DNA of 64,000 nucleotides from contig NC_012491.1 in assembly GCF_000010165.1 (NCBI RefSeq), positions 5,766,001-5,830,000 of the forward strand, read 5' to 3'. Below, one piece after another: positions 2,235 to 2,626 of the stretch. This DNA comes from Brevibacillus brevis NBRC 100599 (lineage in GTDB: Bacteria > Bacillota > Bacilli > Brevibacillales > Brevibacillaceae). Numbering within the stretch: position 1 is the stretch's first letter; every line of letters starts with the position of its first letter. The notes below the pieces were generated by a model. The model worked only from the letters and a program-made list of their open reading frames with translations. It was not told where the DNA came from and searched no databases. The position numbers and the translations under genes were made by a program.

Positions 2235-2324
2235 TATTTTGGCAAAGCTTTTTTCTCGACTTTGAAAAATCAGTAACATCTAACCTCTAAGAAGGGCCTT
2301 CTAGTTTGAGTCAACATAGTGGAG

Positions 2325-2536
2325 GAGAAGAAAAAGCGCAGTTCTCTTCGACTCTGACACGCTCGCAAGGGGGACTTACTGTCCGTCTCCACTTCCAAAA
2401 GGGGACCGTCGAGCCAAAGCCACCCTACGGGCGGAAGGTTCTCGGGGAAGAAGTGTTCGACAAGCGTGGTCCCCTTTTGGAAGTTCCGACTGGGTAAGCG
2501 TTGTCAAGGTCTACGAGCCCTGCGCTTTTTCTTCTC
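2325..2536. repeat. 212-base nested inverted-repeat element (MITE-like or structured RNA)
   Basis: Two pairs of perfect 17-base arms are nested. The outer pair is 2325-2341 with 2520-2536 (arm GAGAAGAAAAAGCGCAG). The inner pair is 2391-2407 with 2468-2484 (arm ACTTCCAAAAGGGGACC). Between them are weaker pairings: GACACGCT 2356-2363 with AGCGTTGTC 2497-2505, and GTCGA 2408-2412 with TCGAC 2457-2461. No credible reading frame covers it and no target-site duplication is visible. It lies between the bioA operator and the terminator of the next gene, and either strand could be transcribed. It could be a miniature inverted-repeat element or a long-hairpin RNA, and the layout loosely resembles 6S RNA. 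The function is unknown. Confidence 0.75.
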
Positions 2537-2574
2537 ATCAGCTTTGTCCGTTCATCGATTCCTTCTAAAACTCA

Positions 2575-2615
2575 AAAAGGTCAAGCTCCTCTTTGTTAGA
2601 GGAGCTTGACCTTTT
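2575..2615. terminator. Intrinsic terminator after the SLH glycosidase gene
   Basis: An 18-bp perfect stem (2575-2592 with 2598-2615) has a five-base loop and A- and T-rich flanks on both sides. It lies just after the stop at 2627 of the minus-strand gene and could work in both directions. Confidence 0.9.
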
Positions 2616-2626
2616 ATATTCCGATT

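Follow-up and report, generated by a model that had tools for sequence, protein, structure and literature searches.

In the single-contig genome of Brevibacillus brevis NBRC 100599 (6,296,436 bases; G000 here, G- and L-numbers labelling the genomes and loci compared), an intergenic palindromic element is flanked by bioD-/bioA-like genes and, across from them, by an SLH/phosphodiester-glycosidase (NAGPA) gene. The neighbours were assigned from Pfam domains, and their bio gene names are our assumption. Positions are those of the window, the whole stretch of 64,000 nucleotides that was analysed. As the original prediction had it, the element is bounded by an intrinsic terminator, found at approximately 2575-2616; on the other side, beside bioA, stands the palindrome GGTTAACATATATTTGTTAACC at 2192-2213, which we take to be a BirA operator. 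Both nested pairs of arms are perfect over their whole length (Table 1), and none of 200 dinucleotide shuffles matches the fold energy of the 212 nt on either strand, in keeping with the claim that the arms are not due to chance. The element had also been described as unexplained by any protein frame, and the 63-aa frame that runs across it indeed has no Pfam match. Its extent needed revision: the 212 bases form the conserved core, and the repeated unit is larger, approximately 270 bp (~2304-2573). Read in the fork-codirectional sense (- strand), this unit runs from the terminator side (2573) to the bioA side (2304) and begins directly where the T-tract of the NAGPA-side terminator ends.

Table 1 Features of the element and its boundary in the window
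Feature	Position	Strand	Basis
Whole repeated unit, subfamily A	2304..2573	-	Edges to which copies agree; absent in G018 and G022
Conserved structured core (model R1)	2325..2536	.	Fold, covariance model, conservation, covariation
Outer arm 5' side, helix 1	2325..2341	+	Exact reverse complement of 2520-2536
Outer arm 3' side, helix 1	2520..2536	+	Exact reverse complement of 2325-2341
Core motif ACTGTCCGTCTCC, consensus ACTGnCCG(g)CTCC	2378..2390	+	Common to A, B, C and Thermoactinomycetaceae copies
Inner arm 5' side, helix 7	2391..2407	+	Exact reverse complement of 2468-2484
Inner arm 3' side, helix 7	2468..2484	+	Exact reverse complement of 2391-2407
Core motif CCGACTGGGTAAG, consensus CCGC(C)TnGGTAGG	2486..2498	+	Second conserved motif of the core
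Intrinsic terminator of NAGPA/SLH-domain gene	2575..2616	-	Sequence; filled/empty sites; rule over 59 loci

Copies, subfamilies and taxonomic range

The BLASTN copy check proposed with the original prediction revealed a dispersed intergenic repeat. At E <= 0.001 it is present 24 times in its own genome, in 23 cases at 88-100% identity (two of these truncated) and in one as a diverged copy at 78%. These 24 copies make up subfamily A, one of three (A, B and C) in a G000 catalogue of 106 elements in 59 loci, which blastn of the fetched loci sorts into 24 A, 36 B1, 34 B2 and 12 C-like elements. An A element consists of one foldback, whereas a B element, approximately 500 bp long, combines two inverted foldbacks and is often tandem with a period of ~520 bp; C resembles half of B. 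A covariance model built from 40 copies (R1) returns 94 rows on G000 at E <= 10, many of which are reverse-strand echoes of the palindromic A copies. Direct tandem arrays of up to five units, with a period of ~352 bp, were seen at L156, L158 and L159 (G007) and at L164 (G009).

Of the 26 genomes examined from the genus, 24 match at E <= 0.001, G003 joins them as the 25th at 4.4e-6 with deeper scoring, and G025 yields no element even at E 0.1. At least 31 of 39 genomes of the order match, in 5 of its 7 genera, further genera of the family among them. In the class sample at least 18 of 299 genomes match at E <= 1e-4; 16 of these are from the same family as Brevibacillus and the remaining two from a single different one. 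The order and class counts are lower bounds because the distant searches used R1. The pattern of the two core motifs occurs in 34 stretches of genome contigs, mostly from Brevibacillus, of which 14 were folded. Its matches in Kroppenstedtia, Melghirimyces (two species) and Paludifilum, presumably all Thermoactinomycetaceae, fold as members, and L292, L293, L300, L305 and L307 fold no better than z -2 and were taken as chance. Plasmids, phages and viral contigs gave no match with the queries used. At L266 and L267 (G307 and G236) a further conserved stretch, TTAATCAACAGCCCTGA, lies downstream, beyond the modelled core.

A fold conserved while sequence diverges

Folded as RNA, the 212 nt reach -107.4 (+) and -108.5 (-) kcal/mol, with z-scores of -7.8 and -8.3. 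Copies share a plan of ~192-225 nt in which a closing stem is followed by internal loops, a small hairpin, the motif ACTGnCCGCTCC and then a long inner stem with an asymmetric bulge, an A-rich loop and the motif CCGCTnGGTAGG. The covariation check bore the structure out: across 47 diverged copies (alignment A3) both sides change at all 69 of 69 pairs and 90.5% of cells pair. For the outer arms (helix 1) this means 16 of 16 modelled pairs, with 97.8% of cells paired, and for the inner arms (helix 7) 17 of 17, with 86.8% paired. The covariation score of 0.565, compared with 0.171 +/- 0.006 for shuffled and <=0.14 for slid alignments, leans towards structure because A3 was aligned by the model. 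Some of the covariation may also stem from template switching rather than from selection on the fold, given that on the 3' side of the inner arm of L021 (the G000 copy at 1922377) a change of several bases turns an imperfect continuation of the stem into a perfect palindrome. This change looks like a template-switching event, and perfect arms can arise in that way without selection.

The long arms are almost pure Watson-Crick, with 5282 such pairs against 18 G.T and 50 A.C in an unbiased arm alignment (mismatches ~1% together). The model-fitted pairs instead hold 117 G.T against 44 A.C, with G-U tolerated by some inner helices, and reading the functional strand from the two mismatch types was abandoned because the alignments disagree (18/50 versus 117/44). 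The idea that the better-folding DNA strand is the lagging template seemed true for A, B1 and B2, but it was rejected when the control failed: random windows show a similar bias (151/216) and G021 contradicts it.

Related species have copies at orthologous positions, and these copies evolve under constraint. Among the fetched loci of relatives, an ortholog can be assigned to 22 of the 24 A copies from one flank or more, and to 20 of them from both flanks. In a comparison of 44 ortholog pairs, drawn from 17 loci, identity is 88-98% in the 11 core bins (93-98% in 9 of them), falls to 71-85% in the adjacent intergenic bins, the least conserved stretch, with indels counted as differences, and is ~93-95% in the distal left flank, which is largely coding. 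For 53 copies, similarity is 94.6% between orthologs, 92.1% between paralogs of one genome and 92.3% between paralogs of different genomes. Concerted evolution was thus discarded as the cause of conservation, since sharing a genome does not make paralogs more alike, and without genome-specific homogenisation each copy seems to be constrained. The interval between psd and gatC (gene names that we assume) holds diverged elements in G000 and G014, and likewise in G008 and G007 as judged by shared flanking proteins.

Replication polarity, terminators and candidate enzymes

GC skew and coding strand in sampled 20-kb stretches place the G000 origin near 0 and the terminus near 3.15-3.25 Mb. All 24 A loci and all 24 B loci of this genome have one polarity relative to replication (48/48). 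Counted by element, A (24/24) and B1 (36/36) face against the fork, B2 (34/34) faces with it, and the C-like copies are mixed (9 with, 3 against); relative to the fork, the strand that bears the core motif in A/B1 is the opposite of that in B2/C. Coding in the sampled stretches is 79% leading-strand, and gene-strand bias alone would give 48/48 with P ~1.4e-5. At 8 of the 59 loci, all A or B, the gene call on the fork-arrival side is lagging and the polarity still holds, some of these calls being doubtful, given the codirectional terminator on that side at L212 and L009. The 1.27 Mb around the G000 terminus contains neither an A nor a B locus (P ~2e-5).

Among the matches listed, the A copies of G005, G006, G022 and G023 fall into two strand-uniform arcs, which are not independent because the loci are orthologous. 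In G034, which belongs to another genus and has its origin near 4.28 Mb and its terminus near 2.0 Mb, all 7 fetched copies, of at least 13 matches, share the polarity seen in G000. Exceptions occur: hand counts give 23 copies against and 6 with the fork in G007, 7 and 1 in G009, and 8 and 2 in G010 outside the terminus region, and several G021 copies have no single polarity because they are inverted pairs.

Read on the fork-codirectional strand, which is the lagging-strand template sequence, units begin just after the T-tracts of intrinsic terminators. A terminator-like hairpin with a T-run lies upstream on this strand at 37 of 59 loci, compared with 10, 10 and 14 of 59 for the other combinations of side and strand and 38 of 200 random windows; relative to ordinary gene 3' ends followed by a gap (51/114) the excess is modest (p 0.04). 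The distance from stem to arm is 35-58 nt in 12 of 15 A cases, 24-40 nt in 13 of 15 for B and 21-47 nt in 7 of 7 for C. An empty site at the window locus exists in G018 and G022, in which the flanks adjoin and ~300 bp are missing; both genomes carry many copies at other places. In this comparison, the one clean locus, the target is A-rich and there is no clear target-site duplication, a second empty site (the L005 locus) not being clean because its flanks are rearranged. Imperfect inverted ends lie beyond the arms.

For the Y1 transposase domain (PF01797), 10 of the 26 genus genomes have no match and 8 of these carry elements (E <= 0.001); for reverse transcriptase (RT; RVT_1) the figures are 11 of 26 and 10. 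A Y1/RAYT transposase or a resident RT as a necessary mobiliser was therefore rejected, being absent from several carriers, although such an enzyme may once have been present and since been lost. Group II-type RT genes have the same polarity in 13 of 13 cases in G021, 5 of 6 in G000 and 14 of 15 in G010 outside its terminus region (hand counts, with the RT type checked for one G000 copy). All RT gene matches together number 27 in G010 and 13 in G021, nearly all codirectional with replication. At L190 (1-1285; G000:C1:861500-862784) a group II intron (RT TIGR04416, RF00029 domain) lies directly upstream of a B unit, and the two occupy the same terminator niche. In G021, a 118-aa frame at L148 624-980 sits between two inverted elements and by eye resembles, as we presume, a fragment of an IS1595/ISXO2-type transposase.

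Origin and role of the repeat

The likeness to 6S RNA that had been suggested fell away. The element shares with 6S RNA (ssrS) a long, interrupted, closing hairpin, but there is no 6S match in cmscan of 2100-2700 at E up to 5, and the element occurs in dozens of copies (24 of subfamily A alone, versus one or two). At permissive thresholds Rfam offers no credible match in the window or in A, B, C and distant copies; a Thr_leader match in L024 was set aside, as it is below the gathering score and looks like a terminator. REPINs are palindromic intergenic repeats kept vertically, and the Bacillus cereus bcr repeats are short dispersed non-coding intergenic repeats in Bacilli. The element resembles REPIN/RAYT systems in its vertical retention, but it differs from them and from IS200/IS605 in its far greater length, in the nesting of its arms, in its asymmetric core and in having 8 carriers without Y1. 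It is short, non-coding and present in many dispersed copies like a MITE, yet its strict polarity relative to replication, its docking at terminators and a fold kept from genus to genus set it apart from MITEs and probably from bcr repeats. Unlike a retron or another RT-encoding retroelement, it has no reverse transcriptase linked to it.

According to PMC8919778, group IIC (bacterial class C) introns are inserted directly behind rho-independent terminators and in the lagging-strand template, and the review PMC5371812 describes IS200/IS605 insertion as single-stranded and coupled to the lagging strand, with an orientation that follows replication. With group IIC introns the element has in common its docking behind intrinsic terminators and its lagging-strand-template polarity (48/48 for A and B, 9/12 for C). 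Unlike them, it is only ~200-270 nt long (~500 nt for B), is palindromic overall, has no RT gene, has long been kept at orthologous sites and occurs in genomes without an RVT_1 match. The elements also give no match to RF00029 domain V, by which the neighbouring L190 intron is recognised. From this class C-like polarity and docking, seen without domain V, an RT or a Y1 partner, we infer single-strand docking by an enzyme that was not found.

Our preferred reading, held with modest confidence, is that of an ancient foldback element without a protein of its own that entered the lagging-strand template behind terminators and was later kept by selection. Units would have entered as single-stranded DNA, or as RNA copied in place, behind the fork, by docking beside the terminator hairpin as group IIC introns do. 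The conserved core may be the recognition target of a trans-acting factor, and copies would since have been retained by purifying selection, possibly as DNA hairpins.

The original prediction had left a choice between a MITE-like repeat and a structured RNA, and it is partly supported. The element is a dispersed intergenic repeat, as a MITE would be; it is short, non-coding and multi-copy, has imperfect inverted ends beyond the arms and, in G021, forms composite inverted pairs. That it is an ordinary MITE of a DDE transposon, with orientation and place as by-products of purifying selection against harmful insertions, is nevertheless very unlikely: target choice by a transposase does not give a polarity of 48/48, docking would be left unexplained, the filled/empty comparison at one site lacks a clear target-site duplication, and a cognate transposon was not seen. 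Were the element instead a multi-copy structured non-coding RNA, each copy would be transcribed, its folded RNA would be functional, and its leading-strand orientation would be selected as in rRNA and tRNA genes. The constant length, the covariation of every modelled pair and the strongly conserved unpaired core motifs fit such an RNA, as do the agreement of orientation with the gene majority and the acceptance of G-U by some inner helices in the model-fitted pairs. We find it rather improbable, considering that Rfam has no match, that in the nearly pure Watson-Crick long arms G.T is rarer than A.C, that the sequence outside the arms, where promoters would lie, is the least conserved, that copies are positioned behind terminators and that A/B1 and B2/C carry the core motif on opposite strands relative to the fork.

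That last point also weighs against a chromosome-maintenance DNA element, a hairpin or cruciform acting at the fork in primosome loading, fork restart or gyrase/SMC recruitment, for which polarity and the absence of copies around the terminus would themselves be selected. The strict polarity of A and B, the 1.27 Mb free of both, the constraint on each copy, the near-pure Watson-Crick arms and the psd-gatC position kept across the genus all agree with such a role. The simple expectation from this role, better DNA folding of the lagging-template strand, was not borne out, as random windows show a similar bias and G021 contradicts it, and some genus members have few or no copies. We regard it as an unlikely explanation.

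Returning to the foldback element that entered behind terminators, a bolder form of this reading is possible, if doubtful. Eukaryotic SINEs use LINE enzymes, and the element might likewise belong to a new class of mobile element that has no protein and is coupled to replication. It would be a folded module of 200 nt, single or in composite pairs, that docks next to terminator hairpins on the lagging-strand template, is perhaps copied in trans by group IIC RTs and is kept as a chromosome-wide set of oriented hairpins. Searches of the open-access literature, PMC2864571, PMC8919778 and PMC5371812 included, gave no description of the element. We place the repeat among the dispersed palindromes, as a variant; proof of the docking mechanism would make it a class of its own.

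Such palindromic repeats are commonly regarded as junk or as transposase-driven MITEs. Here a repeat without a protein is uniform in polarity across all A and B loci, occupies a defined position behind terminators and is under selection in each of its copies. If the preferred reading is true, group II introns are not alone in docking at terminator hairpins on the lagging-strand template, and whether a bacterial chromosome carries a set of hairpins that is oriented and selected becomes a testable question.
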